From: Oscillospiraceae bacterium
GTDB lineage: Bacteria > Bacillota_A > Clostridia > Oscillospirales > Oscillospiraceae
Direction: 5' to 3'
DNA length: 36,758 nucleotides
Assembly (NCBI GenBank): GCA_015068055.1
Contig: SVLG01000012.1
Coordinates: forward strand, 1-36,758
Part shown: positions 10,572-34,703 of the stretch, piece after piece
How the letters are laid out: every line of letters starts with the position of its first letter
How positions within the stretch are numbered: the stretch's first letter is position 1
The notes under the pieces: model-generated
What the model saw: the letters and a program-made list of their open reading frames with translations, nothing else
Told to the model about the DNA's origin: nothing
Databases searched by the model: none
Program-made: the position numbers and the translations under genes

Positions 10572-10606
10572 CAAGGCGGCACCTGAGGTGCCGTCTTGTT
10601 TTTTTC
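10572..10606 (+). terminator. Intrinsic terminator after the symporter
   Basis: Stem 10572-10583 with 10587-10598 (AAGGCGGCACC with GGTGCCGTCTT) followed by a run of T. Confidence 0.85.
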
Positions 10607-10671
10607 TGCAGTTCTATGGTATTATACTTAGATACAATGCGCGGAGAATGCAAAGAGATGGGGAGAAGGCT

Positions 10672-12666: not shown

Positions 12667-12699
12667 AACGTATCGAAACCGAAAAAGGAGTATATAACT

Positions 12700-13146: not shown

Positions 13147-13176
13147 ACGACTTTTTTCTCCGGGAGGAGATTCGCT

Positions 13177-15811: not shown

Positions 15812-15825
15812 CGTGAAGGAGAAGC

Positions 15826-16365: not shown

Positions 16366-16386
16366 GCGACAGGAAGTGACAGGCAT

Positions 16387-18315
16387 TTGAAAACACCCAA
16401 CAACCGGCCCAGACAGATTGGCTTTTACATTCTGATCCTGACCATTCTGCTGGCCACAGTCTACACCATGCTCTCCCCCGCCGATAAGGGCGGCGAGCTG
16501 GAGTATTCCGAGATCATCACACTCTTCCGTGAAGGAAAGGTAGAGTCCTTTGCGCTGAACACCGACGGCAACCTGCATCTGGAGCTCCGGGAGGAGTATA
16601 AGGAACACGATGTCTATGATGTGATCGTGGTGGACTTCAGCGTTTTCTACTCCGATCTGGGTGAAGAGGTGCAAAAGCAGCTGGAAGACGGCACCATCAC
16701 CGAATATGATTACGAAAAGGCCTGGACAGCCCCTCTGTGGCTGAGCTTCCTGCCCTATCTCTTCATGATGGTGATCTTCGGCTTCTTCTGGTACACCATG
16801 ATGAGCCGCTCTCAGGGCGGTGGCGGCGGCATCGGCAAGTTCTCCAAGGCCCGCACCAAGCTGGGCAGCGAGGAGAAGAACAAAAAGACCTTTGCCGACG
16901 TAGCCGGCGCCGACGAGGAGAAGGCCGAGCTGGAGGAGATCGTCAGCTTCCTGAAGTCTCCTCAGGCCTACACCGACATGGGTGCGCGCATCCCCAAGGG
17001 CGTTTTGCTGGTGGGCCCCCCGGGCACCGGCAAGACCCTCCTTGCCAAGGCCGTGGCCGGTGAGGCGGGCGTGGAGTTCCTCTCCATCTCCGGCTCCGAC
17101 TTTGTGGAGCTCTATGTGGGCGTGGGCGCGGGCCGTGTCCGCGACGTCTTTGATCAGGCCAAAAAGGTCGCCCCCGCCATTATCTTCATTGATGAGATTG
17201 ATGCCGTTGGCCGTCAGCGCGGCAGCGGTCTGGGCGGCGGTCACGACGAGCGCGAACAGACCCTGAACCAGCTGCTGGTGGAGATGGACGGCTTCAGCAA
17301 CAACGAAGGCGTCATCGTCATGGCAGCCACCAACCGCGCCGACATTCTGGACAACGCCCTGCTGCGTCCCGGCCGCTTCGACCGGCAGATCTACGTGGGC
17401 CGTCCGGACATCAAAGGCCGTGAAGAAATTCTGAAGGTCCATGCCAGGGGCAAGCCTCTGGGCGACGATGTGGATCTCAAGGACATCGCCAAGGGTACCC
17501 CCGGCTTCACCGGCGCCGATCTGGAAAACGTCCTCAACGAGGCCGCCCTCATTGCTGTACGCCGGGAACGCAAGTTCATCATGCAGCCGGACATTGACGA
17601 GGCCATCCTCAAGGTGCAGATGGGCCCGGAGAAGAAGAGCCGCGTTATCAGCGACAAGGAACGCCGTCTCACCGCCTATCATGAGGCCGGCCACGCCGTG
17701 GTGGCCCACTTCCTGGGCAAGACGGACCCCGTCCACTATATCACCATCATCCCCCGCGGCCATGCGGGCGGCTTTACCCTCTTCCGTCCCCAGGAGGACA
17801 AGAGCTTCAAGGCGAAGAGCGAGATGATGGCCGACATCGTGGTGAGTCTTGGCGGCCGTGTGGCGGAGAAGGTCTTTCTGGACGATATCTCCACCGGCGC
17901 CTCCGGTGACATCCAGCAGGCCACCAGCGTGGCCCGCAACATGGTCACCGTCTACGGCATGAGCGAGAAGCTGGGCCCCATCAGCTACGACAGCGCCGGA
18001 CAGAGCATCTTCATTGGCCGCGACTTCGGCCAAACCAAGAGCTACAGCGAAGAAACCGCTGCCCTCATCGACTCCGAGGTCAAGCGCATCTTTGACGAGG
18101 CCATGGAGAAGGCTGAGTCCATTCTCCGTGAGCACGCCGACGTACTGGTGGCCGTGGCCGAGTACCTGCTGGTCAACGAGACCATGGACGGCAGTGACTT
18201 CGCCTACTTCTGCGAACACAAGTGTCTGCCCCCGCTCCCTGAAAAGAGCGAGGAAGTACAGAAGATTGAGGCGGAGATTATCCGCGAAAGCGAAGCGGAA
18301 CCTACAGACGAATAA
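16387..18315 (+). CDS. ftsH: ATP-dependent zinc metalloprotease FtsH
   Basis: A 642-residue membrane protease. Two transmembrane helices (about residues 11-30 and 116-135) bracket a short extracytoplasmic domain. The AAA+ module follows, with Walker A GPPGTGKT (~209), Walker [16 protein letters not shown], and the second-region-of-homology arginines in RPGRFDRQI. The zinc site is HEAGH (~431). FtsH degrades misassembled membrane proteins and some regulators. Translation appears to start at TTG 16387, with AGGAAG about ten bases upstream; no in-frame ATG lies before the first helix. It closes the tilS-hpt-ftsH group and has a terminator. Confidence 0.97.
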
Positions 18316-20066: not shown

Positions 20067-20095
20067 TTGACATTCCATCAGCCATCGTGTATACT
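20067..20095 (+). promoter_or_regulatory. Near-consensus promoter of the B12 operon
   Basis: TTGACA (20067-20072), exactly 17 bases, TATACT (20090-20095); expected start near 20102, a dozen bases before the first aptamer. The strength suggests that control is exercised mainly by the riboswitches that follow. Confidence 0.88.
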
Positions 20096-20113
20096 GGCTG
20101 CAAAGTTAATATT

Positions 20114-20300
20114 CCGTTTGAGTGCCTGTGGAAGCGGTAACAGCTCCACGGGATTATAGAAAACCGGGTGCAAATCCCGGACGGTACCGCCACTGTAAGC
20201 GTTGAGGTTTTGTGCGAGGCGAAAGCCGGTCATTGGAGGAAACTCTGAGAAGGCTGCACGAAACTTATGATGCGCAAGTCAGGAGAACTGCTCAAATGTG
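20114..20300 (+). promoter_or_regulatory. Cobalamin riboswitch 1 (large aptamer with peripheral arms)
   Basis: The conserved B12-aptamer core is visible: an ACCGGGTGCAAATCCCGG stem, then ACGGTACC followed by GCCACTG (20189-20195), and AAGTCAGGAGA near 20276-20286. A closing stem P1 pairs TTTGAG (20117-20122) with CTCAAA (20291-20296). The long insertion between the GCCACTG box and the AAGTCAGGAGA box gives the peripheral arms of class-I (adenosylcobalamin) riboswitches. B12 binding is expected to favour the terminator at 20355. Ligand preference between adenosyl- and methyl/hydroxocobalamin cannot be fixed by eye. Confidence 0.92.
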
Positions 20301-20354
20301 TGAGGCGCACGGGTCTGCAAGTACGGATCCGGGGGCCATGTTGCGGGAAAACGG

Positions 20355-20387
20355 CTGCAGCAACCTTTCGGGTTGCTGCAGTTTTTT
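20355..20387 (+). terminator. Terminator of riboswitch 1
   Basis: CTGCAGCAACC (20355-20365) pairs perfectly with GGTTGCTGCAG (20371-20381) and is followed by TTTTTT. An upstream GTTGC near 20339-20343 could compete with the stem as part of an antiterminator. Confidence 0.9.
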
Positions 20388-20415
20388 GTGTCCCGCAGAC
20401 AACTGAATATTGCTT

Positions 20416-20508
20416 ATCGATGCGGTTGGTGAGCCGGTGAGAGTCCGGAACAACCGTCCATTGCTGTGTTTGGCCAGGGCCATCAGTCAGAGAGCCTGCC
20501 GCGTCGAT
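20416..20508 (+). promoter_or_regulatory. Cobalamin riboswitch-like aptamer 2 (compact)
   Basis: A second, much shorter aptamer. Closing stem: ATCGATGCGG (20416-20425) with CCGCGTCGAT (20499-20508), ten pairs with one G-U. Inside are the B12 core elements GCCGGTGAGAGTCCGG then AACAACCG, a TTGCTGTG box (20461-20468) standing for the usual CCACTGTG, and CAGTCAGAGAGCCTGCC for the usual AGTCAGGAGACCTGCC. The small spacing (~90 bases) and lack of large peripheral arms resemble compact B12 aptamers. The core departs from consensus at several places, so it could be a variant with altered ligand specificity. It has its own terminator, so the two aptamers form a tandem. Confidence 0.75.
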
Positions 20509-20530
20509 CGGGTTTTTCACGCTTTGACAG

Positions 20531-20585
20531 GAGAGTGTAACCTTGTTTGTCCGTACTTGGGGGCAGACAGGTTGCACTCTTTTTG
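20531..20585 (+). terminator. Terminator of aptamer 2
   Basis: A long hairpin: 20532-20552 pairs with 20560-20580 (outer arm AGAGTGTAACCT with AGGTTGCACTCT) and is followed by TTTT. It ends 35 bases before the first structural gene, as expected for transcription-terminating riboswitch control. Confidence 0.82.
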
Positions 20586-20619
20586 CTTGCGGGGAAACCA
20601 CATGAAGGGAGAAGGGGGG

Positions 20620-20820
20620 ATGCAAGTGACACCGGAAGAAAAGAAGACCTGGGCGGAGGAGCTTCTGCGCAGCAAGTGCGTACAACTGGGGAGACTCCCC
20701 ACCAAAAAGGATTTCGACCCTGTTGCCTGCGCCCAAATCAAGGCATATCTGGGCCCCTGGCCCCGTGCTCTGGAAGCGGCCGGACTGAAGCCGCCCAGAG
20801 GAAAGAAAACAAGCGTATAA
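20620..20820 (+). CDS. Small protein with a homing-endonuclease-associated (HNH) repeat
   Basis: A 66-residue protein (72 if the ATG at 20602 is used; GGAG eight bases upstream favours 20620). Most of it is a single repeat: LLRSKCVQLGRLPTKKDF, then IKAYLGPWPRALEAAGL. The G-x-x-P-T-K-x-D-F start and the G-x-W-x-x-A-L-x-A-A-G end match the short helical repeats found beside HNH homing endonucleases, usually thought to bind nucleic acid. No nuclease domain is attached. It is the first gene after the tandem riboswitch and ends 19 bases before the secreted protein, so it shares the B12 control. Why a DNA- or RNA-binding-like peptide sits in a B12 operon is unclear; regulation is a possibility. Confidence 0.65.
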   Translation: MQVTPEEKKTWAEELLRSKCVQLGRLPTKKDFDPVACAQIKAYLGPWPRALEAAGLKPPRGKKTSV

Positions 20821-20839
20821 GAGAAAGGACGAAACGCTT

Positions 20840-23653
20840 ATGCGAACGAGCAAAAAAGTTTTCAGCCTGCTCCTTGCCATGATAATGGTTGTGGGGCTGC
20901 TGCCTGTGAGTGCCCTTGCTACGGGCACGAACAATGTCTACCTCTCCGTCAGCTATGACGGAAAATACCTGAACGGCCAAGACGGCGCCCCCATCGCTTA
21001 TGTCCCTGTGTCTTTTGAAGAACTGGCATCCATTGACCTGGATACATATGGTTTAAGCGAATACAAGTACGATGAGAATGGCGATGGCAGTTATGACATC
21101 ACCGCTCTGCACATGGTTATCTATGCCCATGAAAACATCTACGGCGGCAGTTGGAGCGATGTAACCTTTACCGGCAGCCCCGGCAGCTCTTACTTCGAGG
21201 GCGGTATCTTTGGCTTTGACGAAAACCTGAATTACTACCTCAATGGTGAATACCCCATGGATGAGAAGCTTACGGAAACGAACGGCTACGGAACCGGAGC
21301 CACCTCCGACCGGATTGTTCTGGAAGCCGGTGACTTTCTGGACATCGCCAGCTTCTCCAGCTGGGATTTCTACGCGGATTCCAATTACGGTTTCCATTTC
21401 TTTGCTGACGAAAGCGGCGCCTTTACCCACAACTATACGGCAGAAGCCGGTACAGCTGTCGATGTGAAGCTGGTTCGCTCCTTCTCCAGTATGGGTACCG
21501 GAGCAACGATCTATGACGCAGCCGACTACAGCATCTCCTATGGCGCTTCCTATGGCAATGCAAGCGGAACGGTCAGCACCAACGGGGACGGCTGCGCCGC
21601 CGTCACCTTCCCCTCTGCCGGCAAGTGGGTTCTGTGGGCAGATGGCGGTTACGGTCTGGAGTACCCGGATGACATCGTTTCCGCTCCTGCCTACGCAGAA
21701 GTAACGGTAACGACCAAAGAAGAAGACCCCGCCCCTGAAGAACCCACAACGGCGCAGGATGTATCCGCCGTGCTGAATGCGACCATGGCGCAGCTTGCCG
21801 CCACTGTGACCGAGCCTGTCTTCGGCACGACCGCCGGCGAATGGACCGTGCTGAGTCTGGCCCGCGGCGGCTACTACGCCATGGATAATGCCTATTTCAC
21901 CGATTACTACAACCGCATTGTAGAGACCGTCAATGAAACGGCGGCCTCTGTCAACATGAGCGGTGCGCTGCACAAGAACAAATCCACCGAAAACTCCCGC
22001 CTGATTGTTGCTCTGTCCGCCCTCGGCAAGGATGCCACTTCCGTGGGCGACTGGGATCTGGTGGAGGCATACAGCGCCAATGGCTTTGACTGGATTAAAA
22101 AGCAGGGTCTCAACGGTACCATCTGGGCTCTGATCGCTCTGGATTCCAATAACTATGCAACCACCGATACCACCATCCGCCAGCAGTGTGTGGATGCGAT
22201 TCTGGCAGCCCAGCACGATGACGGCGGCTGGTCTTTGATGGCAAACAAAACTTACGCCTCCGACCCCGATATTACCGGCATGGCTCTGACGGCTCTGTAT
22301 CCTTACCGGGATCAGGCTGCGGTGGCCGAAGCCTGCGCCGAAGCTATCGCCTGTCTCTCTGCCATGCAGAACGATGACGGCACCTATACCTCCGGAGGTG
22401 CCAAGTGCGCAGAAAGCTGCTCCTGGGTTATCGTAGCTGCTACTACCTGGGGCATCAATCCCGACACCGACAGCCGCTTCATTAAGAACGGAAATTCCGT
22501 TGTGGATGGCTTGCTGGCCCACTACCTGTCCGACTCCGCCACCTTCCAGCACATCATCGGCGCAGGCTCCAACGCCATGGCTACCGACCAGTCCTGCTAT
22601 GCGTTGGTGGCCTATGACCGCTTTGTAAACGGCAAGAGCGCTCTCTTTAACTACAGCGACGTGACCTTTGAGGCGGCCCCTGCATCCGATGAAATGACCG
22701 CCACGCTGGGTCTTCCCGCCCAGATCAACCCCGGCGAAGCTTTCAACGGCGTAATCAGCATCAACAAGTGGGATAACGAGGCCAAGTACAAGCTCATCGA
22801 CTTCATCGTCACCGTCCCCGAAGGTGTCAGCGTAAGCAGCGTGACCGCAAGCGAGCGTCTCGGCGGCGGCAGCGTCAGCTACAATCTGGAAGAAGACAGC
22901 GGCAAGCTCCGTGTGGTCTATTTCGATGCCAATGAAAACAGCGACCTGACCGTCAGCGGCGAGAGTTTCCCCGCCGAGCTCTTTACCATCGGTTTCAAGG
23001 CGGAAAGCGTGGCCGGCGGTTCCAGGCTGGATATTGCCATCAGCGGTATGTCCGTCAAGCTGACTTCCGATTCCGTGGACGAAAACGCCATGATCGTGGT
23101 GAACACGGATTCCGCCAAGGGCAGCGTCAATGTTGTGGTGGGCATTTCCTTCAGTGCCGTTTGCCTCTACGAGGGCGATGGCGTGGACCTGATCCCCACC
23201 ACGAAAAAAGCGGTTGCCGTTGGCATCACCGGCATTGCCGGCGGTACCAAGCTGACCTATAACGACGGCAGCAACACCACAGAGTTTAAATACAGCGCGG
23301 AAATCACCGCAAAATCCGGCATCCCCACCTATGTGGCGCTGGTGGATGCCACCATCGACACGGCAAACTTCATCAACCGCAGTTACTTTACCATGCCCGG
23401 CGGAAATGCCGCTGCCATCACCTTTGGTGATTCCAACAGCGACAGCGTGATCAATGCCCAGGATGCTCTGGCGGCCGTGGATGCCTGGCTCCGCAAGGGT
23501 GAGGCCCTCACCGATGACGGAATCCTGATCCTGAACGTCAACGGCGACAGCCGCATCAATACCTTCGATGCACTGGGCATCGTGGAAGCCTTTGTAAACG
23601 GCAGCACCTACGCTGTTGTTACCAAGGCTGCGACCATCGCAACCCAGCAGTAA
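20840..23653 (+). CDS. Secreted transcobalamin/intrinsic-factor-like protein with dockerin
   Basis: A 937-residue exported protein. Signal peptide residues 1-27 (KKVFSLLLAMIMVVGLLPVS, cut near SALA). About 30-200 looks like DUF4430, the family related to the beta domain of transcobalamin (LNYYLNGEYP, then DRIVLEAGDFLDIASFS). About 310-610 is an alpha/alpha-barrel region with prenyltransferase-type repeats (AAQHDDGGWSL, MQNDDGTYTSGG, ATDQSCYALVAYDRF), the fold of the B12-binding alpha domain of intrinsic factor. About 615-770 is a beta-rich, cohesin-like stretch. About 772-862 is a module shared with the next protein, and 863-921 is a type I dockerin-like pair (GDSNSDSVINAQDAL, NVNGDSRINTFDAL). 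Placed behind B12 riboswitches and ahead of an ECF transporter, it most likely binds corrinoid outside the cell and docks through its dockerin. Family calls are by pattern, not alignment. Confidence 0.8.
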   Translation: MRTSKKVFSLLLAMIMVVGLLPVSALATGTNNVYLSVSYDGKYLNGQDGAPIAYVPVSFEELASIDLDTYGLSEYKYDENGDGSYDITALHMVIYAHENIYGGSWSDVTFTGSPGSSYFEGGIFGFDENLNYYLNGEYPMDEKLTETNGYGTGATSDRIVLEAGDFLDIASFSSWDFYADSNYGFHFFADESGAFTHNYTAEAGTAVDVKLVRSFSSMGTGATIYDAADYSISYGASYGNASGTVSTNGDGCAAVTFPSAGKWVLWADGGYGLEYPDDIVSAPAYAEVTVTTKEEDPAPEEPTTAQDVSAVLNATMAQLAATVTEPVFGTTAGEWTVLSLARGGYYAMDNAYFTDYYNRIVETVNETAASVNMSGALHKNKSTENSRLIVALSALGKDATSVGDWDLVEAYSANGFDWIKKQGLNGTIWALIALDSNNYATTDTTIRQQCVDAILAAQHDDGGWSLMANKTYASDPDITGMALTALYPYRDQAAVAEACAEAIACLSAMQNDDGTYTSGGAKCAESCSWVIVAATTWGINPDTDSRFIKNGNSVVDGLLAHYLSDSATFQHIIGAGSNAMATDQSCYALVAYDRFVNGKSALFNYSDVTFEAAPASDEMTATLGLPAQINPGEAFNGVISINKWDNEAKYKLIDFIVTVPEGVSVSSVTASERLGGGSVSYNLEEDSGKLRVVYFDANENSDLTVSGESFPAELFTIGFKAESVAGGSRLDIAISGMSVKLTSDSVDENAMIVVNTDSAKGSVNVVVGISFSAVCLYEGDGVDLIPTTKKAVAVGITGIAGGTKLTYNDGSNTTEFKYSAEITAKSGIPTYVALVDATIDTANFINRSYFTMPGGNAAAITFGDSNSDSVINAQDALAAVDAWLRKGEALTDDGILILNVNGDSRINTFDALGIVEAFVNGSTYAVVTKAATIATQQ

Positions 23654-23662
23654 ACAGTTTTC

Positions 23663-23693
23663 CGGTGGGGAGGCCCATCTCCCCACCGTTTTT
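23663..23693 (+). terminator. Intra-operon terminator or attenuator
   Basis: CGGTGGGGA (23663-23671) pairs with TCCCCACCG (23680-23688), then TTTTT. It lies between the large binder and the CHAP gene, so it should reduce expression of all downstream genes relative to the binder. Confidence 0.8.
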
Positions 23694-23707
23694 CAGGGGG
23701 AAAGCGG

Positions 23708-25750
23708 ATGAAAAGAAAAATGCACAGTTTCAAACGGGGCGTTTCGCTGCTTCTGCTGCTGAGTCTCTTTGTATGGGAGAGCGCCGCAGCGGTTTATGCC
23801 ACGGACGGCACAGCACCCGAAGAAACCGGGCCGGAGCCTCTCTCCCTCGTCCTCCATACGGAGGAGTTGCCGGGAATCGTTGGCGAAGTTATGGACACTT
23901 TTCTGGAGATCCGGGGCGGGACGCCCCCCTACACTGCCCTTTTCACGGTGGCGGAGGGAGAAACGCTTTACCATCAGGAGGACATCACCTATGAGGCAGA
24001 CGGTGTTTACACTCTTGGCTTTCTGCCGCCGATGCCCGCTGCCTATAAAGTCTGCGTTGAACTGACGGACAGCATGGGTGCCGTTGTATTGGAAGAGGGC
24101 AGCATATCGGCGGCCGAGCCGGAACCCACACCGGAACCTACACCGGAGCCTACACCGGAACCGACTCCGGAACCCGCACCCGAGCCCACACCGGAACCCA
24201 CGCCGGAACCTACTCCCGAACCCACGCCCGAGCCTACGCCGGAACCCACGCCGGAACCCACGCCGGAACCTACTCCCGAACCCACGCCCGAGCCCACGCC
24301 CGAGCCCACGCCGGAACCCACGCCGGAACCTACTCCCGAGCCGACTCCGGAACCCACGCCGGAACCTACTCCCGAACCCACGCTCGAACCTACGCCTGAA
24401 CCTACACCGGAACCTACGTCCGAAGCCCTCGCTATCTGCTTTGCTGCACCGGCCGCCTATGCGGTCGTCGGGGAAGGGGCCATGGACTTTACACTGGAAA
24501 TCAACGGAGGGACTGCGCCCTACACCGTTCTCTTCACCGTGACGGTGGGGGAAAACCCGCCTTATCAGGAAAGCGTTACCTATGAAGAAAGCGGCAGCCA
24601 CAGCCTAAGTTTTACGCCGACGGCTCCCGGCACCCATCTGGCCTCGGTGGAAATAAGCGACAGTCTTGCAAATCGGCTGCAGGAAGAATGCAGCATCCCG
24701 GTGGCGGACCGCAGCGCAGAAGATGCCGAAGTCTGGGCAGAGAGCGTCAGCGGCGCGGCGCTGTCCGGAAACTGGGCAGAGGACGTTGTGGCCGTTGCCC
24801 GCTCCCAACTGGGTTACTGCGCCAGCAGCAGCAACTTTATCATCGATGAAGACGGCATAACCCGCCGCTATACCCGCTACGGCCATCTGTACGGCTGTCC
24901 TTATGCCGACTGGTGTGCCATGTTCGTTTCCTTCTGTCTGAAATATGCCGGCATCCCCGAAACGGCTCTGCCGCAGGAAGCCGGCTGCCAGCATTGGATA
25001 AACACACTCAGCGGCATGGGCGTTTTTAGAAGCGAGGACCATACGCCCTCGGCCGGTGATCTTGTTTTCTTCGGCGAAAACGGCCAAAGCAGCCATGTGG
25101 GCATCGTCTCCGGCGCAGTGGACGGCATGCTCTGCGCCATTGAGGGAAATCACATGGACTGTGTCAGCGAGTTTTCCTACAGCATGGAGGACGAGCGCAT
25201 TCTCGGCTATGCCTCCATGGACGCCGTATCCCGCCGTTATAACACTTTCCGCGCCGTGGAGCTCTACGAAGGGGATGGCACCGATCTGATCCCCGCCGGA
25301 AAGAAGGCCGTGGCGGTCAGTATCGGCAGCATCCCCGGCGGCAGCCGCCTTATCTACAACGACGGCAGCTATGAAACGGAGTTTCTTTTCAATGCGGCCA
25401 TCTCCGAAAAAAGCGGCCTCCCCTCCTATGTAGCGCTGGTGGATGCCGCCACGGAAACCGGGCGCTTTGCAAACCGGGATTCCTACACTGTCGGCGACGG
25501 CCCGGCCGTGGCCCTTGTCTTTGGCGACTCCAACGGCGACGGCATCGCCAATGCCCAGGAGGCGTTGGCAGCCATCCATGCGTGGCTGCGAAATGGTGAA
25601 ACGCTCAGCGATGCGGGCATTCTGGCCCTGAATGTCAACGGCGACGGCTGCATCAATGCCTTCGATGCGCTGGGCATTGTGGAGGCCTTTGTGAACGGCA
25701 GCCCCTACGGCGTTGTCACAAGGGCCGTGGCCGAAACCGGCTTTTCGTAA
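23708..25750 (+). CDS. Secreted CHAP-domain hydrolase with TPEP linker and dockerin
   Basis: A 680-residue protein. Signal peptide (about 1-32), a first beta-sandwich domain (~45-135, [12 protein letters not shown]), a Thr-Pro-Glu-Pro linker (~137-238), a second copy of the same sandwich (~240-335, [12 protein letters not shown]), and a CHAP/NlpC-like domain (~355-510). The catalytic Cys is C403 in [11 protein letters not shown], the His is H463 in SSHVGIV, and the polar residue is in IEGNH (479-482). The ~515-605 module and the dockerin (606-665, [15 protein letters not shown] and [15 protein letters not shown]) closely match those of the preceding protein. CHAP enzymes cut peptidoglycan peptide or amide bonds. 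Here it could open the wall locally so large B12 binders reach the membrane, or act as a remodelling partner; that role is inference. The ATG has AGGGGG upstream. Confidence 0.85.
24116..24423 (+). repeat. Tandem 12-base repeat coding for a Glu-Pro-Thr-Pro linker
   Basis: About 25 imperfect copies of a GAACCCACGCCG-like unit, each coding EPTP, with a few Ala, Leu and Ser variants. Third positions vary (ACA, ACG, ACT; CCC, CCG, CCT), so the peptide is conserved more strictly than the DNA. Copy number is probably unstable by slippage. Confidence 0.95.
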
Positions 25751-25761
25751 AGGGGGATCCT

Positions 25762-26361
25762 ATGAAAGACAAACTAACACGCAAACGTCTGTTCCTTGCA
25801 GCAGGTCTTTTGCTTCTGCTGCTCCTCTCGCTGCTGCTAATCCGCTGCGGCAACGGAGGAAAGAACATACCCACTCTCCGTGTGGAAACGCCGCAGAAGC
25901 TCTCCCGCTCCCAAACAGAGGCCTTTATACTGGATGTAAGCATTTCCCATCTGGGGGAGGCCCTCTATCCCGCCATGAGCACAAGCATCCGCTTCGATCC
26001 CGCCTGTCTGGAATTTCTCGGCGTGGAAGAGGGCAATGTCTTTGTAACGGACGCTGAGACGGGGAAAACTCTGCCCCAGTGGAGCTGCAACCCCGAACAG
26101 TGCAACAAAACAGGACTCATCAACGTGATGTATCTGGACCTCACCGGCGGCAGGGCCGCTTTCAGCCAAAACCTTCTGGCGGAGGAGGACAACGTGGTGA
26201 TGCGCCTTTCCTTCCGGCTGCGGGGAAGCGCCCGCAGCGGCGACGTGTACGATCTTCTGGTGGAGGATGCGGTGTTTGCCGCCTCGGAGGAGAGCCAAAG
26301 CCTTGCCATGACCAAAGACACGCTGAAATGTAAAAACGGTAAAATTGTGGTGGGAGACTGA
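25762..26361 (+). CDS. Membrane-anchored cohesin-domain protein
   Basis: A 199-residue protein with a basic start, one long hydrophobic segment (about residues 10-27) and then one beta-rich domain of ~155 residues. The domain has the order of strands of a cohesin: LRVETPQKLSRSQTEAFILD, then AMSTSIRFDPACLEFLGVE, then GLINVMYLDLTGG and NVVMRLSFRLRGSARSGDVY, ending NGKIVV. Cohesins hold dockerins, and the two preceding secreted proteins end in dockerins, so this is probably their anchor at the cell surface. Cys29 follows LLIR, a poor lipobox, so a transmembrane anchor is more likely than a lipid. Strong AAGGGGG ribosome-binding site; 11 bases after the CHAP gene and two bases before the lipoprotein gene. 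Confidence 0.75.
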   Translation: MKDKLTRKRLFLAAGLLLLLLLSLLLIRCGNGGKNIPTLRVETPQKLSRSQTEAFILDVSISHLGEALYPAMSTSIRFDPACLEFLGVEEGNVFVTDAETGKTLPQWSCNPEQCNKTGLINVMYLDLTGGRAAFSQNLLAEEDNVVMRLSFRLRGSARSGDVYDLLVEDAVFAASEESQSLAMTKDTLKCKNGKIVVGD

Positions 26362-26363
26362 GT

Positions 26364-27476
26364 ATGAAAAGATTTGTTTTGCTGACCCTCTGCTGCCTGC
26401 TCCTGTTGACCTTCTGCGGCTGCGGCAGCGCTTACGGAGAGATCGACCTTCAGGAACCGGTAGCCATTCCGGAAGACGGCATCATCCGGGAAAGCATCCT
26501 CCGTCAGCTCCGGGAGGAAAATGCCATCGGCACCTTTCAAGGGAGTTCCAACGGTTTTTCCTATGAGTGGACGATTTTCGGCAGCGACATCACGGAGACC
26601 CGTGAAATCAACCTGAAAACGGAAATCTCCGTGCTGGAGGACGGCGTTGAGCTGCGCTTTTCTCAGGAGGAGCCCTTCGCTTTCCCAGCGCTCCTCTCCG
26701 TGGAATTGCAGGAGGTCTGGGATGCCCAGAGCGCAACGGCTTGGCAGGAAAATAAGGCGGTGTATTCCGTGGCGCTCACCGGCTCCCGGAATACCATTGC
26801 CAACCTTTCCGTGGGGGATACGCTGGGAAGTCTCCGGATTGTTCCGGATGCGATGCCGGTGGAAAGCACTCCCGCCCCCACAGCGGAACCGACAAAGCTT
26901 GAAAGCTCTTCCGTCAGCGACGGATACCTCTCCGCCGTAACGGACAGCAGTACGCGGGTCTACTCCGACGGGAGGGGCAGCGGGCAGGATCAGTATCTCA
27001 CCGATCCGGTGCCGGCGGGCAAGCCCATGCCGGTGGAGCCGGAAAACCAGCAGGTCAACACCGCCTCCAGCTATACCTGCACCTTCTCCATCGAGTGCTC
27101 CACCATACTCAACAATCTCAGCCAACTGGACCCCGCCAAGCTGGAGATGGTGCCCTCCGGCGGCACCATTCTCGTCCCCACCACCGTCACCTTCTACGAG
27201 GGCGAGTCCGTATTCGATGTGCTGCAGCGGCTCTGTCAGGAAAAGGGCATCCACATGGAGGCCTCCTGGACACCCATTTACAACAGCGCCTACATTGAGG
27301 GCATACATAATCTCTACGAATTCGACTGCGGCAGTCTTTCCGGCTGGATGTACCGGGTCAATGGCTGGTATCCCAATTACGGCTGTTCCCGTTATCAGTT
27401 GGCTGACGGCGATGTGGTGGAATGGCGTTATACCTGCGATCTGGGCAACGACGTCGGTGGGAGGAATCTTTTCTGA
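26364..27476 (+). CDS. DUF4430 (transcobalamin beta-domain-like) lipoprotein
   Basis: A 370-residue lipoprotein with a signal sequence ending in FCGCGS; C20 with Gly at -1 is the likely lipid-bearing residue. Residues ~40-160 are a beta-rich domain I do not recognise, ~165-240 a low-complexity Ser/Thr/Pro linker, and ~273-365 a clear DUF4430 domain: FYEGESVFDVLQRL, YIEGIHNLYEFDCGSLSGWM, YRVNGWYPNYGCS, and DGDVVEWRYTCDLGND. DUF4430 is the prokaryotic relative of the C-terminal domain of transcobalamin and intrinsic factor. As a membrane lipoprotein encoded just before the ECF transporter, it may receive cobalamin from the secreted binder and hand it to the S component; that role is inferred. 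GGGAG lies upstream of its ATG. Confidence 0.85.
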   Translation: MKRFVLLTLCCLLLLTFCGCGSAYGEIDLQEPVAIPEDGIIRESILRQLREENAIGTFQGSSNGFSYEWTIFGSDITETREINLKTEISVLEDGVELRFSQEEPFAFPALLSVELQEVWDAQSATAWQENKAVYSVALTGSRNTIANLSVGDTLGSLRIVPDAMPVESTPAPTAEPTKLESSSVSDGYLSAVTDSSTRVYSDGRGSGQDQYLTDPVPAGKPMPVEPENQQVNTASSYTCTFSIECSTILNNLSQLDPAKLEMVPSGGTILVPTTVTFYEGESVFDVLQRLCQEKGIHMEASWTPIYNSAYIEGIHNLYEFDCGSLSGWMYRVNGWYPNYGCSRYQLADGDVVEWRYTCDLGNDVGGRNLF

Positions 27477-27478
27477 CT

Positions 27479-28369
27479 ATGGCTGACAGATTTTCCGCCT
27501 ACCACCCGCTGGTGAACTTTCTGTATTTCGCTCTTGTGATCGGCTTTTCCATGGCGCTGAGCCACCCACTGGCACAGCTCATCTCCCTTGGCTGCGCCTG
27601 TCTCTATGCCGTGCAGATTGATGGGAAAAAGGCCGTTTTGTTCACGCTCCGCTGGTGTCTGCCCATGATGCTGCTGACTGCCTTTCTGAATCCCGCCTTC
27701 AGCCACGAGGGTGTGACCATCCTGCTGTATTTCCCCACGGGAAATCCCCTGACGCTGGAGAGCATCCTCTACGGTCTCTCCGCCGGCGTGATGCTGGCCA
27801 CGGTGATGCTGTGGTTTCTGAATTTCAACCGGGTTATCACCTCCGATAAGTTCATCTATCTCTTTGGCCGCATTATACCCGCCATGTCGCTGGTGCTGAG
27901 CATGACACTGCGCTTCATTCCCAAATTCAAAGCGCAGATGGCCAGCGTGACGGATGCCCAGCGGTGCATCGGCCGGGATGTGTCGAAGGGCTCCCTCTGG
28001 CATCGGACGAAAATCGCCGTCACGGTACTCTCCATCATGATCACCTGGTCGCTGGAGAATGCCATCGAGACGGCAGACAGCATGAAAAGCCGGGGCTACG
28101 GTCTCAAGGGGCGCAGCGCCTTTTCCATCTACCGTTTTGAAGAGCGGGACAGGGCGGCTCTCCTTTTTCTGGGTTTCTGCGCTTTTTATCTCCTGTCCGG
28201 TGTGCTAATATCGGCCTTTGGTTTTCGCTACTTTCCCAGCCTTCGCTGCGCGCCCATAAACGCCTTCACCCTTTCTTTTCAGCTTGTATACTGGATGCTG
28301 TGTATCATGCCCGTGGTGCTGAACGCAGCGGAGGAGCGAACATGGAAAGCTATTCATTCAAACATGTAA
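27479..28369 (+). CDS. ecfT: ECF transporter transmembrane subunit EcfT
   Basis: A 296-residue membrane protein with about six hydrophobic segments. The coupling helices carry the Ala/Ser-Arg-Gly signature twice-related to EcfT: ETADSMKSRGYGLKGRS near residue 195 and the earlier LRFIPKFKAQMASVTDAQR. EcfT joins the ATPases to the substrate-binding S component. GGAGG lies 14 bases before the ATG, rather far, so coupling to the preceding gene (stop two bases upstream) may help. The last 28 bases overlap the start of the next gene. The B12 context makes cobalamin or a precursor the likely cargo. Confidence 0.85.
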   Translation: MADRFSAYHPLVNFLYFALVIGFSMALSHPLAQLISLGCACLYAVQIDGKKAVLFTLRWCLPMMLLTAFLNPAFSHEGVTILLYFPTGNPLTLESILYGLSAGVMLATVMLWFLNFNRVITSDKFIYLFGRIIPAMSLVLSMTLRFIPKFKAQMASVTDAQRCIGRDVSKGSLWHRTKIAVTVLSIMITWSLENAIETADSMKSRGYGLKGRSAFSIYRFEERDRAALLFLGFCAFYLLSGVLISAFGFRYFPSLRCAPINAFTLSFQLVYWMLCIMPVVLNAAEERTWKAIHSNM

Positions 28370-30984
28370 ACTTTACATACCCGGAGGGGGAACGGAAAGC
28401 ACTGTGCGACATCTCTTTCCGTGTCCGTCAGGGGGAGTTTCTGATCCTCTGCGGCCCCTCCGGCTGCGGCAAGTCCACGCTGCTGCGGCATCTCAAATCC
28501 TGCCTGACGCCTCACGGCCATTTTTCCGGAGAGATCCGTTACCGGGGCACGCCGCTTGCAGAGCTCCCCCACCGGCAGCAGGCGCAGGAGATCGGCTTTG
28601 TTCTGCAATCCCCGGAAAATCAGGTGGTGACCGACAAGGTGTGGCACGAGCTTGCCTTCGGGCTGGAAAGTCTTGGTTACGACACACCCACCATTCGCCG
28701 CCGGGTGGCCGAGATTGCGGCCTTCTTCGGCATCGAAAACTGGTTCTATAAGGACGTGACGGAGCTTTCCGGCGGGCAGAAGCAGCTATTGAGTCTGGCC
28801 TCCGTCATGGCCATGCAGCCCGGCGTGCTGGTGCTGGACGAGCCAACCGCCCAGCTGGACCCCATCGCCGCGGCGGACTTTCTCGCCCTGCTGGGAAAAA
28901 TCAACCGGGAGCTGGGCACCACCGTCATCCTCACGGAGCACCGGCTGGAAGAGGCCTTCCCCTTTGCAAGCCGGGTCATCGTGATGAACGAGGGAGCGAT
29001 CCTCTGCGATGACAAACCCGAAAATGTCGGGCTTCAGCTGAAAAACCGGGGCAGCGGCATGTTTCTGGCCATGCCCACGGCCATGCGCGTCTGGGCCGCA
29101 GTGGAGACCCCCCTCGCCTGTCCCATGACCGTGCGGGATGGAAGCCATTTTCTGAGTCTGCTTGCCGGGGAACGGCCGTTGCTCCCTCTTACGGAAAAAG
29201 CTCCCCGCACCTACCCGGACGGGGAAACACTCCGCTGTGAAAATCTCTGGTTCCGATATGAAAAAGACAGCGGCGATGTGGTAAAGGGCTTCACCCTCTC
29301 CCTCCGAAAGGGTGAGTTTTACGCCCTTTTGGGCGGCAACGGTGCCGGGAAGTCCACCACGCTGAAGGTGATTTCCGGCCTTCGTTCTGCCTATCGAGGG
29401 GAAGTACATATTCAGGGGAAGCTGGGCCACCTGCCGCAGAATCCCCAGACTCTCTTTGTAAAACGAACCGTCCGTGAGGATCTGTACGAGGTGTTCCGGG
29501 GCGGGAGCATCCCCAAAGAAAAGCAGGACGCGGAGGTGGCGCGCATCACGGAGCTTTGCGGTCTGCGGGATTTTCTGGATCGCCACCCCTATGACATTTC
29601 CGGCGGGGAACAGCAGCGCAGCGCTCTGGCCAAGGTGCTGCTGACTGCCCCGGAGGTTTTACTGCTGGACGAGCCCACTAAGGGTTTTGATGCCGAGTTC
29701 AAGGCGACCTTTGCGCTGATTCTCCGCCGCCTTCTGGCGCAGGGCGTAAGCATCCTGATGGTGAGCCACGATGTGCCCTTCTGCGCCGAATATGCCCATC
29801 GCTGCGGCCTCTTCTTTGACGGCAGCATCGTGGCAGAGGGTACACCCCGGGAATTTTTCTCCGGGAACAGTTTTTATACCACCCCCGCCAACCGTATGGC
29901 ACGGCATCTGCTGCCTCAGGCGGTAACGGTGGCGGATATCATCGGCTGCTGCGGCGGTGAGCTGCCACCGGAGCCGGAAATTCCGGCAGAACGCCCACTC
30001 CCTCCGCCAAAGGAAAGCGCCGTCAACTTTAAGCCCAAGCCTCTGCCCTTGTGGAGAAAAGCCCTTGCCGCAGCGTCCTTGGCGCTGGCGCTGCTGGTAT
30101 TCTTCTATGCCACCGGCATCACGGACCTTTCTGCCCTCATCGATGCAAACGGCATCAGCGCCGCAGGGGAGCTGCAGCTTCGTTTGTACCTTGTGCTGAT
30201 GGCAGCGCTGGCCGTGTTCATTGCGGCCATCGGCCGCCGAAGCGCAGCACCGACCCTGCAGCAGACACCCCGCAGACAGCGAAAACTCCATAAGCGCACC
30301 GTAACAGCGGCGGTGCTGATCGTGCTGTGCATCCCGCTGACCATTTTTGCCGGGGTCATGTATCTGGGCAATCAGCATTACAGCATCACGGCCATACTGG
30401 TGCTGCTCGAATGTATGCTTCCCTTCTTTCTGGTGTTTGAAGGCCGCAGGCCCAGGGCAAGGGAGCTGGTGACCATTGCGGTGCTCTGTGCCATCGGCGT
30501 GGCCGGTCGCTCGGCCTTTTTTATGCTGCCGCAGTTCAAGCCCGTGCTGGCGCTGGTCATCATCGCCGGGGTCTCGCTGGGCGGTGAGACCGGCTTTCTC
30601 GTGGGTGCGGTCACCATGCTCGCCTCCAATGTTCTCTTTTCGCAGGGGCCATGGACACCCTGGCAGATGTTCGCCATGGGCATCATCGGTTTTCTGGCCG
30701 GCATTTTGTTCCGCAAAGGCCTCCTTCGCCGCAGCCGGGGCAGCCTCGCAGCCTTCGGCGCCTTTGCCGCGGTGGTCATCTACGGCGGCATTATGAATCC
30801 CGCCTCCGCCCTGATGTACAGCGCACAAAGTCTGAATGCGGAAATACTTCTTGCCTATTATGTAAGCGGCCTTCCCATGGACCTGATCCATGCAGCGGCC
30901 ACCGTGATCTTCCTCCTCCTTGCGGCCGAGCCCATGCTGGAAAAACTGGACCGGATCAAGGTGAAATACGGTTTGGTGGAATGA
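28342..30984 (+). CDS. EcfA-EcfA'-S fusion: two ABC ATPases joined to an ECF S component
   Basis: An 880-residue protein. First ABC ATPase: Walker A GPSGCGKST (~residue 38), signature ELSGGQKQLLSLAS, Walker B VLVLDEPTAQLDP. Second ABC ATPase: Walker A GGNGAGKST (~331), signature DISGGEQQRSALAK, Walker B VLLLDEPTKGFD. From about residue 570 a Pro-rich link leads to hydrophobic helices ending ~865. The last six resemble an ECF S component (FLVGAVTMLASNVLFSQGPW, then TPWQMFAMGIIGFLAGI). The -QGPWTPWQMFA- stretch is reminiscent of S components associated with cobalamin. Start: ATG at 28342 after GAGGAG. Together with EcfT it supplies a full four-component ECF importer in two genes. S-component assignment is firm as a class, cobalamin is inferred from the operon. 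Confidence 0.88.
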   Translation: MESYSFKHVNFTYPEGERKALCDISFRVRQGEFLILCGPSGCGKSTLLRHLKSCLTPHGHFSGEIRYRGTPLAELPHRQQAQEIGFVLQSPENQVVTDKVWHELAFGLESLGYDTPTIRRRVAEIAAFFGIENWFYKDVTELSGGQKQLLSLASVMAMQPGVLVLDEPTAQLDPIAAADFLALLGKINRELGTTVILTEHRLEEAFPFASRVIVMNEGAILCDDKPENVGLQLKNRGSGMFLAMPTAMRVWAAVETPLACPMTVRDGSHFLSLLAGERPLLPLTEKAPRTYPDGETLRCENLWFRYEKDSGDVVKGFTLSLRKGEFYALLGGNGAGKSTTLKVISGLRSAYRGEVHIQGKLGHLPQNPQTLFVKRTVREDLYEVFRGGSIPKEKQDAEVARITELCGLRDFLDRHPYDISGGEQQRSALAKVLLTAPEVLLLDEPTKGFDAEFKATFALILRRLLAQGVSILMVSHDVPFCAEYAHRCGLFFDGSIVAEGTPREFFSGNSFYTTPANRMARHLLPQAVTVADIIGCCGGELPPEPEIPAERPLPPPKESAVNFKPKPLPLWRKALAAASLALALLVFFYATGITDLSALIDANGISAAGELQLRLYLVLMAALAVFIAAIGRRSAAPTLQQTPRRQRKLHKRTVTAAVLIVLCIPLTIFAGVMYLGNQHYSITAILVLLECMLPFFLVFEGRRPRARELVTIAVLCAIGVAGRSAFFMLPQFKPVLALVIIAGVSLGGETGFLVGAVTMLASNVLFSQGPWTPWQMFAMGIIGFLAGILFRKGLLRRSRGSLAAFGAFAAVVIYGGIMNPASALMYSAQSLNAEILLAYYVSGLPMDLIHAAATVIFLLLAAEPMLEKLDRIKVKYGLVE

Positions 30985-31517: not shown

Positions 31518-32180
31518 TCAAGAAAAGCAAATCTCTTCAAGCTCATCAAATGGCAACCGAGACTTCCCAATTATTACGTCGAAATCCAACGCCCTTATCA
31601 ATGGATCAGCTCTAACTCCCTCATGATACGCAATTCCTTGCCCTTTAAGGCGAAATAGCTTTTTCATTTTCCTCTTACCCTTACTACCCGAGGGAATCGG
31701 ACACGGTTCCATTTCCAAAAACTTAAACACACTGTCACTATCAAGAAGCATCGTGTCTTCGATGTCGGCATTAGCCGCCATATCCAGTATTCGGGTAGTT
31801 TTCTTCTTGCTTAGAGTTTTTCTAAGTATTTCCCAGTCTCCCTCATGGAATTTCGAAAAGTCTTCTTTGTAATCGTCTGTGTCATAACAAAGAATCACGT
31901 TCCAATTCAGCTTTTTATTTTTTGCGTAACACTTAGACGTAAACCATGCGCCAGAATTTGTAAGCTGAGATATTGTTCCTACTACATTCATCTTTATCAA
32001 CACGCGTGAAGATTGACTTTCAAGCACAAAGTATATCTCGCCGCTTTCTATATCCACCTGTTTGGCAAGTATATATCCCTCATGCTTCTGGCACAAGTGT
32101 TCTAGAAGATTGATGTAGAAAGCCTTTTCTGTGTCCCCCTCAAAAATGAATGCCACACCTTTAGAATAAGCACTTTCCAT
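31518..32180 (-). CDS. TOPRIM-like / RloB-like partner of an AAA ATPase (putative phage defence)
   Basis: A 220-residue protein. The N-terminus has VAFIFEGDTEKAFYINLLEH, the E-G-x-T-E-x-x-F-Y start of RloB/DUF4276/TOPRIM-type proteins, and the middle has VILCYDTDDYKEDF, giving the paired Asp acids of a TOPRIM metal site. A later ILDMAANADIEDTMLLD segment also fits. These proteins are usually nucleases, or toxins of abortive-infection pairs, and are encoded beside an ABC-type AAA ATPase, as here. Its ATG starts two bases after the ATPase stop, so they are coupled. The TATCTT/TTGACA promoter ahead of the ATPase would drive both. The family assignment is by motif; the exact defence class is not decided. 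Confidence 0.65.
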   Translation of the reverse strand: MESAYSKGVAFIFEGDTEKAFYINLLEHLCQKHEGYILAKQVDIESGEIYFVLESQSSRVLIKMNVVGTISQLTNSGAWFTSKCYAKNKKLNWNVILCYDTDDYKEDFSKFHEGDWEILRKTLSKKKTTRILDMAANADIEDTMLLDSDSVFKFLEMEPCPIPSGSKGKRKMKKLFRLKGQGIAYHEGVRADPLIRALDFDVIIGKSRLPFDELEEICFS

Positions 32181-32182
32181 AC

Positions 32183-33517
32183 TTATGCCTCCAGATAGAA
32201 GGACAGGGTTTCAGCTGCATCCGAGTCACCGGACATGAGTTCAAATAGATATTCGCCTACAGACATTGCAAGATCGCGCGCGTTGTTAACAAGCATTTTC
32301 ACCTTGCCCGTCTTTACCTTTTTAAACACTGCTGTACCATCATCTGTTGGCATGCCGACATAGATATTATCAGACTTAAAATACTGCACTAAATACGGAG
32401 AGTGACTCGAAATTATTATACTTGTTTCTTCTAGCGCTTCTCCAAGAATCTCAAGCAGATTTTTCAACAACCGAGGATGAATGCTTGTTTCAAGTTCCTC
32501 TACCCCCACAAGAGAAATATTACCAGAACTTGCAATAAAGATGTTAGCAAGTAGCCAGAAAATGCGCTTCGTTCCAGTAGACATCATGGACATGTCAATG
32601 GACTGGTTCAAATCTTTATGGGTGATAAGCACTCTGTACAGTTCATCTCTTATTTTGAATGGGATTGAATCTTTCTCAGCGTCTATGTCTTCAGAAAACG
32701 CTTCATTAGGCGCTGCCGAAAAAATTTTTATACTGTGGGAGTCCTTCCTCAGCTCATATGGCAAAACAGAAACCTCATCAAACTCCGGAAACAAAGTATA
32801 GACCGCTTCAAGAAACAGGTCATATTTTTCCGGAAACTTCATTTTTAACTTATACAACGCACGAGGTACATCTCTGTCATCAAATGAAATTTCGCTATCT
32901 CCTTTGCCTCCCACATACTCAATTGGTTCTGGAAGAAATCTGTCCTTCAAATCCAAAGATGAACAGACATGATAATCTATCGCTTTTATTGCTCGTATAA
33001 CCGAATGGATATCAATATCGTCAATAGCAAGCAATACATCGATAGCAAGCTGACTGCTATCAAGGTTAATTTTTCTATAAGAGGGTGTCGACTTGTCTTT
33101 GCGATATTTTCCCTCCTTGCGTTTCAAATAAGAAGTATAACGAACACTTTCGGACGCTCTTGCCTCTATCCATTCATCTGTTATTTTTTGGCCAGAACCG
33201 TCATCTTTATACCACTGGAATTTGTATCCGTATTTAACATATCGGTATTCATTTAAACTATCATCTTCAAACTCTATCTCAAACACAAACTCAGTATTTG
33301 CAATGGCCTTGTTAATAGGAATACCGCGAACATAGCGCATCATAGAATTTCGCTGTTTAACACTACAAGATAAAAAATCTGTTCCGAAATTAATGGCCTC
33401 CAAAAGATTTGACTTGCCATAGTTATTGGGAGAAACAATGGCTGTAATTCCATTTAGAGACAACTTGGTTTCTGTAAGATTCTTAAAGCCTCCAACGGTA
33501 ACACTTTTGATTTTCAA
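32183..33517 (-). CDS. AAA family ATPase (OLD/RloA/AbiL-like) of a two-gene defence-like module
   Basis: A 444-residue SMC/ABC-type ATPase. The N-terminal TVGGFKNLTETKLSLNGI is the F-K-x-[FL] start of such proteins; Walker A is SPNNYGKSNLLEAI; a signature-like MSTGTKRIFWLLAN precedes Walker B-like LVGVEELETSIHPRLL; and the switch His is in IISSHSPYLVQYF. There is no coiled-coil of SMC length. ATPases like this occur in RloAB, AbiL, PARIS-like and Gabija-like two-component phage defences, with the partner gene just downstream. The start codon is TTG at 33517, eight bases after a perfect AGGAGG; no ATG would keep the FKN motif. Base composition is markedly lower in GC than the chromosome genes, so it was probably acquired. 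Confidence 0.82.
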   Translation of the reverse strand: MKIKSVTVGGFKNLTETKLSLNGITAIVSPNNYGKSNLLEAINFGTDFLSCSVKQRNSMMRYVRGIPINKAIANTEFVFEIEFEDDSLNEYRYVKYGYKFQWYKDDGSGQKITDEWIEARASESVRYTSYLKRKEGKYRKDKSTPSYRKINLDSSQLAIDVLLAIDDIDIHSVIRAIKAIDYHVCSSLDLKDRFLPEPIEYVGGKGDSEISFDDRDVPRALYKLKMKFPEKYDLFLEAVYTLFPEFDEVSVLPYELRKDSHSIKIFSAAPNEAFSEDIDAEKDSIPFKIRDELYRVLITHKDLNQSIDMSMMSTGTKRIFWLLANIFIASSGNISLVGVEELETSIHPRLLKNLLEILGEALEETSIIISSHSPYLVQYFKSDNIYVGMPTDDGTAVFKKVKTGKVKMLVNNARDLAMSVGEYLFELMSGDSDAAETLSFYLEA

Positions 33518-34581: not shown

Positions 34582-34703
34582 GAAAAGCCCCTTGCGTGAA
34601 CACCGACCAAAGCACACACGCAAGAGACTTCCACCCCAATCCCACAGGAGGGGGCAAGACCATTATACCTTGTCCTTTCCCCAATTACAAGAGAGGAGAA
34701 CCC

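Follow-up and report, generated by a model that had tools for sequence, protein, structure and literature searches.

Docking between cohesins and dockerins is best known from plant-fibre-degrading complexes, and the surface-exposed capture of vitamin B12 ahead of a transporter is known from BtuG/BtuH of Bacteroides, which act at a Gram-negative outer membrane and have unrelated folds. Gut Firmicutes have no outer membrane. In the sections of Burroughs et al. (2007; PMC1796856) drawn on here, DUF4430/toroid proteins encoded in CbiO/CbiQ operons were predicted to scavenge B12; often two such proteins are present, which may form complexes at the cell surface. Furthermore, the energy-coupling factor (ECF) importer ECF-CbrT was shown to transport cobalamin and cobinamide (PMC5997447). 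Here, an operon located at positions 20067..30984 of a DNA stretch of 36,758 nucleotides (contig SVLG01000012.1; the whole stretch is called the window in the following) is compared with these systems. We consider it quite likely that the operon serves to capture and import corrinoids (B12), that a cohesin-dockerin pair takes the place of the surface anchor usual in such systems, and that the genes are preceded by two cobalamin riboswitches in series. The host is probably an Oscillospiraceae-type gut bacterium, as judged from the relatives of the locus. The B12-scavenging core was already predicted in 2007 and is hence not new, the new part being the cohesin-dockerin assembly: a search of openly available papers gave none that places cohesins or dockerins in the uptake of B12.

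Cohesin and X-dockerin modules

The six protein open reading frames (ORFs) of the operon, P0001 to P0006, all lie on the plus strand. They and their domains are arranged as follows:

20840..23653, plus strand: P0001, secreted toroid protein of 937 residues (signal, beta domain, Ig-like, toroid, cohesin fold, X module, dockerin)
20924..21427, plus strand: N-terminal beta domain of P0001, probably divergent DUF4430/SLBB (AlphaFold2 predicted local distance difference test, pLDDT, 87-97 by blocks of ten)
21755..22678, plus strand: alpha/alpha toroid of P0001
22691..23143, plus strand: internal cohesin module of P0001, residues 618-768
23144..23650, plus strand: X module and type I dockerin of P0001 (dockerin 23426..23575; Pfam Dockerin_1 21.6 bits, cut-off 22.9)
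23708..25750, plus strand: P0002, secreted CHAP protein (CHAP domain 24902..25150; 35.7 bits, cut-off 26)
25268..25747, plus strand: X-dockerin of P0002 (dockerin 21.8 bits, cut-off 22.9)
25762..26361, plus strand: P0003, single cohesin with an N-terminal transmembrane anchor (Pfam cohesin 21.8 bits, cut-off 24.1)
26364..27476, plus strand: P0004, DUF4430 lipoprotein (DUF4430 at 27201..27434; PF14478 65.7 bits, cut-off 23.8)
27422..28369, plus strand: P0005, CbiQ-like ECF T component (PF02361 25.7 bits, cut-off 25; possible start 27479)
28300..30984, plus strand: P0006, ECF A-A'-S fusion (TIGR04520 319.5 bits, cut-off 315; possible start 28342)
about 30340..30981, plus strand: S domain of P0006 (ECF-CbrT, 6fnp_A)

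P0001 and P0002 terminate in the same X-dockerin, with 61.9% identity over 160 aligned residues. The loops of the P0001 dockerin read D-x-N-x-D...N-x-x-D and N-x-N-x-D...N-x-x-D, loop 1 of the P0002 dockerin ends in E, and by this motif the dockerins have two EF-hand-like calcium loops. A Pfam cohesin was found in all six P0003 family members scanned (best 8.6e-9). Kinship between the P0003 cohesin and the internal cohesin of P0001 is unsupported by sequence (hhalign probability 1.1%), and the profiles of neither match any cohesin of the PDB by sequence. P0003 and P0001 contain one cohesin each, so that a multi-cohesin scaffoldin is absent, and no polysaccharide-degrading or other carbohydrate-active Pfam domain was found in P0001 and P0002. 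A cellulosome was rejected on these grounds, there being neither a scaffoldin nor a carbohydrate domain on the dockerin proteins.

The genomic context was read with the modules of the window in 25 loci (L001-L025 of 40 from a genome scan), several of which are near-identical, so that not all of them are independent. In 12 of the 25, the toroid protein carries an X-dockerin, and a P0003-type cohesin comes next in 9 out of 9 such loci whose contig continues; L006, L008, and L011, where the contig stops before the next gene, were not counted. Likewise, L012, whose sequence stops within the toroid, counts neither for nor against the cohesin, and the same holds for L016 and L017, where no toroid was seen. 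None of the ten toroid loci without X-dockerin (L013-L015, L018, L019, L021-L025) contains a P0003-type cohesin. The toroid of L013 is 82% identical to that of the window, yet has a transmembrane tail instead of the X-dockerin, and the others end in [N/S]PxTG sortase-like (L014, L018, L019), SLH (L021, L022) or LPxTA tails (L024, L025), with no anchor recognized in L015 and L023; except for SLH and the L024 anchor, these tails were read by eye.

A similar picture was obtained when 400 genomes of the family of genome G002 were searched. The P0003-type cohesin profile matched six genomes and the full X-dockerin (at least 50 bits) the same six, five weak hits confined to the dockerin part not being counted, while the toroid was found in 138 genomes including these six. 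Genes for the toroid-dockerin protein, the cohesin, and the DUF4430 protein are adjacent in all four newly found genomes (G121, G168, G172, G227), and the ECF T gene adjoins in three of them, the contig of G168 stopping within the DUF4430 gene. Two of the four, G172 and G227, diverge strongly, with X-dockerins scoring about 50 bits and cohesins scoring 49-63 bits; no N-terminal beta domain or internal cohesin was recognized in them with the modules used. From the 138 toroid genomes, 30 loci with flanks of about 1.5 kb on each side of the toroid were typed for their anchors by SLH comparison, the dockerin profile, and simple patterns. The 31 toroid ORFs comprised 22 with SLH, 4 with dockerin, 1 with a possible transmembrane tail, and 4 with no recognized anchor; the cohesin was seen only in the 4 dockerin loci, which belong to genomes already included in the six.

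Among the 16 genomes behind the first loci, one close X-dockerin copy is present in 8 and one cohesin copy in 7, counts that come from related genomes, incomplete metagenome-assembled genomes (MAGs) among them, and are, given this relatedness, not independent. The X-dockerin genome without cohesin is G008, whose contig is cut 3' of the toroid gene. At an E-value of 0.001, Pfam detects one dockerin and one cohesin in the draft genome G002, and two overlapping dockerin matches in one ORF plus one cohesin in the draft genome G003, all being the operon's own genes; no other Pfam cohesin or dockerin gene was found in either at this threshold, which the strongly diverged internal cohesin of P0001 homologs does not reach. 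G004-G006 contain 24-28 Pfam dockerins and 3-4 cohesins, and even there only one copy each of the close X-dockerin and of the P0003-type cohesin is present, three further weak dockerin-only matches in G006 not being counted as X-dockerin. In G013, G015, and G016, Pfam finds cohesins of a type other than P0003. From this distribution, the P0003 cohesin looks like the socket for the X-dockerin of P0001 and P0002.

Dockerins were also encountered in a second type of B12 locus. In G012 and G013, a BtuR-type corrinoid adenosyltransferase gene is followed by a cobalamin riboswitch, an HNH_repeat-like ORF, and a fusion of the beta domain with a dockerin (loci L041 and L042). The adenosyltransferase of L041 matches PF02572 with 188.5 bits, that of L042 was assigned from its sequence, and the riboswitches score 40.6 and 39.2 bits, respectively. 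The dockerin of these fusions differs from the X-dockerin (60.4 bits in L041, 45.7 bits in G013). The next gene is the start of a cohesin slightly below the cut-off (23.4 bits) in G013 and a long Ig-like protein without Pfam cohesin match in G012. The beta domain is therefore tied to corrinoids independently of the toroid, and dockerins independently of this particular X-dockerin.

Predicted capture proteins and importer

ECF-CbrT (6fnp_A) is the sole significant PDB match of the S domain (E-value 1.7e-10); cobalt instead of a corrinoid was rejected as substrate on account of this match. For P0004, a profile of 19 DUF4430 sequences yielded transcobalamin-1 (4kki) as best PDB match, with an E-value of 1e-4 across the beta domain; a putative metal-binding protein (0.02) ranks ahead of transcobalamin-2 (0.071), while P0004 alone or a narrower profile gave no transcobalamin match in the PDB. 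The animal proteins are thus similar to this system at domain level, and these comparisons demonstrate homology for the beta domain only. Among viral contigs there were no relatives of P0004, and the search of P0001 against plasmids gave partial toroid matches only, in three records.

The N-terminal domain of P0001 is probably a divergent DUF4430 domain. Using larger alignments, hhalign relates the two with a probability of 29.5% (P 5.7e-4), compared with P-values from 0.0054 to 0.45 for five other domains of the operon used as controls; with small alignments the probability is 2.65%. The secondary structure read from the AlphaFold2 model is strand-strand-helix-hairpin-strand, and a Y-x-x-N-G-x-x-P ... 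G-D pattern is common to both domains. In the window the domain has no Pfam match and was also missed by an iterated hidden Markov model search, and no linking sequence was found via L054, which has a weak Pfam DUF4430 match upstream of the toroid (22.0 bits, cut-off 23.8). As a separate observation, the P0001-type beta domain of L015-L017 is located on very long or repeated surface proteins with no toroid in the same ORF, those of L015 and L017 being preceded by cobalamin riboswitches of low score (42.9 and 32.1 bits).

The toroid profile matches terpene cyclases (4.3e-18; second profile 2.2e-17). Squalene-hopene and drimenyl diphosphate synthases are the best matches by sequence and VIA-align, followed by sugar epimerases and other toroid enzymes. 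Because the AlphaFold2 model of full-length P0001 (15 sequences) was poor, with a mean pLDDT of 60.1 and the toroid mostly below 60, a fragment was refolded with 97 sequences. Among the Foldseek rows listed for it (50 of 1129), a polysaccharide lyase and chains of complement and alpha-2-macroglobulin ranked best, all of them weak and little informative (template modelling scores about 0.2-0.3, root-mean-square deviation above 18). Some genomes hold several toroid proteins, G387 having six toroid matches in long ORFs of 1122-2234 residues.

An initial annotation, made from the letters of the window alone, had already named most of these parts. Its CHAP protein, DUF4430 lipoprotein, and complete ECF importer agree with the family scores listed above, and the relation it gave between DUF4430 and the transcobalamin beta domain is recovered by the family profile. 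The secreted P0001 indeed carries a toroid, its DUF4430-like beta domain being likely only, and the proposed cohesin of P0003 is real as a domain, whereas its N-terminus reads as a transmembrane anchor and not as a lipobox. The genes are co-oriented as described, with smaller overlaps if P0005 and P0006 start at the ATGs at 27479 and 28342. Of the extracellular B12 scavenging of intrinsic-factor type, the B12 part appears largely right, and neither the listed profile rows nor the listed fold rows of the toroid contain transcobalamin or intrinsic factor. The X-dockerins, the internal cohesin fold of P0001, and the HNH_repeat ORF had been missed.

We propose that the operon encodes a dedicated cohesin-dockerin complex for corrinoid capture that feeds an ECF-CbrT importer, both the docking and the B12 binding being predicted. 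P0001 and P0002 would be secreted and dock via their calcium-binding dockerins onto the P0003 cohesin, which would keep them membrane-bound and close to the importer. The corrinoid would be clamped by the P0001 toroid and the beta domain of the same protein, possibly helped in trans by that of P0004, and then be passed to the CbrT-like S component, which would import it at the expense of ATP, while the CHAP protein might open the cell wall locally. At high cytoplasmic cobalamin, either aptamer could stop transcription ahead of the first gene. A more elaborate arrangement, which may be called a corrinosome, is rather doubtful: P0003 would be the membrane socket and P0001 an adaptor scaffold, more copies of P0001 or P0002 would stack on its internal cohesin as chains of B12 traps through the wall, with CHAP opening the peptidoglycan, and the P0001 toroid and P0004 beta domain would form a two-half clamp ahead of the S component.

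Tandem riboswitches, host, and surroundings

Ahead of the protein genes, the following features were found:

20067..20095, plus strand: sigma-70-like promoter, TTGACA-17-TATACT (consensus agreement 11/12)
20103..20309, plus strand: aptamer 1, cobalamin riboswitch (Rfam Cobalamin RF00174; 83.8 bits, above the curated cut-off of 31.5)
20353..20387, plus strand: intrinsic terminator 1, a stem of 14 pairs with T tract
20401..20543, plus strand: aptamer 2, divergent, cobalamin clan (adenosylcobalamin, AdoCbl, RF01482; 23.2 bits, cut-off 50; covariation)
20533..20584, plus strand: terminator 2, a long hairpin with T tract (every cell paired in helices 4 and 5 of the covariation test)
20626..20820, plus strand: small ORF with HNH_repeat domain, 64 residues from GTG (PF18780, 9.8e-10; ATG at 20620 possible)

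The near-consensus promoter and the two B12-aptamer-like RNAs of the initial annotation are both recovered, the second RNA by covariation and below its curated cut-off (23.2 versus 50 bits). Riboswitches in tandem are already known as such. An RF00174-family riboswitch was found in 16 of 20 related loci scanned, the four without a match (L010, L013, L014, L016) having less than 720 bases upstream of the match, and, of the four loci from the newly found genomes, L053 and L054 have a cobalamin riboswitch that scores above the cut-off. Aptamer 2 reaches 26.0-28.8 bits against RF01482 in four of five relatives scanned, no match being listed for L001, and was found in 8 of 15 aligned leaders, namely the window and 14 of the 16 riboswitch-bearing loci (L015 and L017 were left out). 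Its 34 pairs are formed in 99.6% of cells, with both sides changed in nine pairs, a level reached by 0 of 500 shuffles; when shifted, the structures pair 36-46% of cells, a control that favours the tested structure, which was drawn on the window's sequence. Because its helices covary, aptamer 2 is taken as a real, if divergent, aptamer of the cobalamin clan despite its low score, and it may function like the AdoCbl class. Terminator 2 was missed by a simple terminator scan of the leader.

The first gene of the operon, 3' of the riboswitches, is the ORF with the HNH_repeat, a homing-endonuclease-associated repeat. Of 13 other leaders examined, 12 contain a related ORF, those of the separate B12 loci L041 and L042 among them; the product is perhaps a small regulator.

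The gene content of the relatives mostly fits corrinoid scavenging, with the MAGs being incomplete. CbiC, a step of corrin-ring synthesis, is present in 3 of the relatives' 20 genomes (G016, G019, G020) and was found in none of G001-G015. B12-binding domains occur in 16 and cobalamin riboswitches in all 20.

The remainder of the window contains several further genes. Upstream, a conserved-looking run (10588-18315) comprises ribosomal protein L9, DnaB, TilS, hypoxanthine phosphoribosyltransferase, FtsH, and what we take to be a GdpP-like signalling protein (score below the family cut-off), and a MoxR-type AAA ATPase with two unmatched neighbours is located at 1147-4641 (minus strand). Downstream, a SprT-like protein (34596-35351) and a phage-integrase-type recombinase (35771-36334) are found, and the window may border a mobile element. 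The AAA_15/OLD-like ATPase at 32183-33517 (minus strand) resembles the candidate anti-phage protein HEC-01A (103 bits) and AbiL-type proteins (87 bits); its neighbour at 31518-32180 had no match.

Alternative readings and comparison with known systems

Several observations weigh against the reading of the locus as a docked corrinoid-capture system. The cohesin and dockerins of the window themselves fall slightly below the Pfam cut-offs, which those of relatives pass, and the 6 of 400 genomes sharing cohesin and X-dockerin are related and do not represent independent events. Neither transcobalamin nor intrinsic factor is among the listed rows of the toroid profile or fold searches, and a search with a Bacillus-type relative likewise gave no transcobalamin. 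Aptamer 2 is missing from 7 of the 15 aligned leaders (L003-L007, L009, L021), and L051 and L052, which diverge most among the loci with the pair, show no cobalamin riboswitch above the cut-off, L052 having little upstream sequence. On the side of physiology, no B12-binding-domain proteins were found in 4 of the 20 genomes (incomplete MAGs), and the gut MAG G016 contains CbiC together with an SLH-anchored toroid; therefore, a B12 maker may also hold such a system. The combination of CHAP and X-dockerin is rare, with one CHAP-labelled row (93% identical) among the 120 of 247 matches listed; because of this rarity, and because no P0002-type gene was seen among the 25 context-read loci, P0002 is regarded as accessory and not as part of the core.

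It is also conceivable, albeit unlikely, that the locus is an ordinary SLBB-type B12 scavenging operon of the 2007 kind, whose dockerins serve elsewhere, such as on a cellulosome scaffold or another cell, and whose adjacent cohesin is not their socket. The toroid without cohesin is the commoner form (138 versus 6 of 400 genomes), some MAGs (G004-G006) have 24-28 dockerins and 3-4 cohesins, and G013, G015, and G016 have cohesins of other types; this is countered by the cohesin and X-dockerin genes, which adjoin each other and occur in exactly the same genomes, by G002 and G003, which show no alternative partner by Pfam, and by the loci whose toroid bears another anchor, in none of which the cohesin was seen. 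That P0001 is instead a secreted terpene-cyclase-like or other toroid enzyme is scarcely credible even though the closest toroid matches are synthases, epimerases, and other toroid enzymes. DxDD is the class II terpene cyclase motif, and this position reads D-x-D-[I/V/M/T/L], with none of 27 toroids and none of 94 alignment rows without gaps having the last D; P0001 is furthermore secreted, encoded behind a B12 riboswitch, and part of an operon with an importer. A terpene cyclase was rejected as the primary interpretation since the last Asp of the motif occurs in none of the 27 toroids. Instead of B12 itself, the system might import, by an identical mechanism, either a range of corrinoids or incomplete ones such as cobinamide and other precursors, which we regard as very unlikely: CbrT takes both cobalamin and cobinamide in the part of PMC5997447 used here, and the aptamers belong to cobalamin classes, a point that speaks against this substrate range and is indecisive.

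If P0001 and P0002 indeed dock onto P0003, docking hardware that appears to be tied one to one to vitamin uptake would point to a wider range of uses of cohesins and dockerins, and docking would be interchangeable with the SLH, sortase, and transmembrane anchors by which this capture protein is held elsewhere. The compact operon makes the 2007 prediction of bacterial transcobalamin-like scavenging directly testable and suggests how B12-dependent gut Firmicutes could rival Bacteroides for corrinoids. In addition, a single orthogonal cohesin-dockerin pair could be of use in engineering.

With regard to known systems, the operon resembles the low-GC Gram-positive operons of Burroughs et al. (2007; PMC1796856), where, in the sections drawn on here, secreted proteins with DUF4430 and toroid domains, a further DUF4430 paralog, and ECF genes occur together in one operon; the window operon likewise has an extracellular DUF4430 protein, a toroid in the same operon, and CbiO/CbiQ-like ECF genes. 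The anchors named in those sections are a Gram-positive anchor motif or sugar-binding domains, with no mention of cohesins or dockerins there, whereas the window operon combines tandem riboswitches with an internal cohesin and a dedicated pair of cohesin and dockerin. Its importer is similar to ECF-CbrT of Lactobacillus delbrueckii, consisting, in the part of the paper used, of a CbrT-like S component with EcfA, EcfA', and EcfT (PMC5997447; PDB 6FNP), and differs from it by the fusion of A, A', and S in a single chain and by the extracellular capture proteins alongside. An alpha/alpha toroid and a DUF4430-type beta domain are shared with transcobalamin, haptocorrin, and intrinsic factor. In contrast to that family, the P0001 toroid is nearest to terpene cyclases and is followed by a cohesin fold, X module, and dockerin with no beta domain 3' of it, the probable beta domain precedes the toroid and the certain one sits on the separate lipoprotein P0004, and the anchoring is to a bacterial surface. 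As in the single-cohesin anchoring of the R. albus type and in cellulosomes, as far as the part of PMC6118326 used here describes them, secreted type I dockerin proteins are paired with a cell-bound cohesin; unlike in cellulosomes, there is one cohesin per anchor, a B12 riboswitch ahead of the genes, and no polysaccharide-degrading domain on the dockerin proteins. Finally, cohesins and dockerins beyond fibre degradation are also described for syntrophic sulfate reducers and anaerobic methanotrophic archaea (ANME), where the portion of PMC10553843 considered here proposes them as adhesins joining partner cells, whereas the pair of the window is linked to a vitamin importer.

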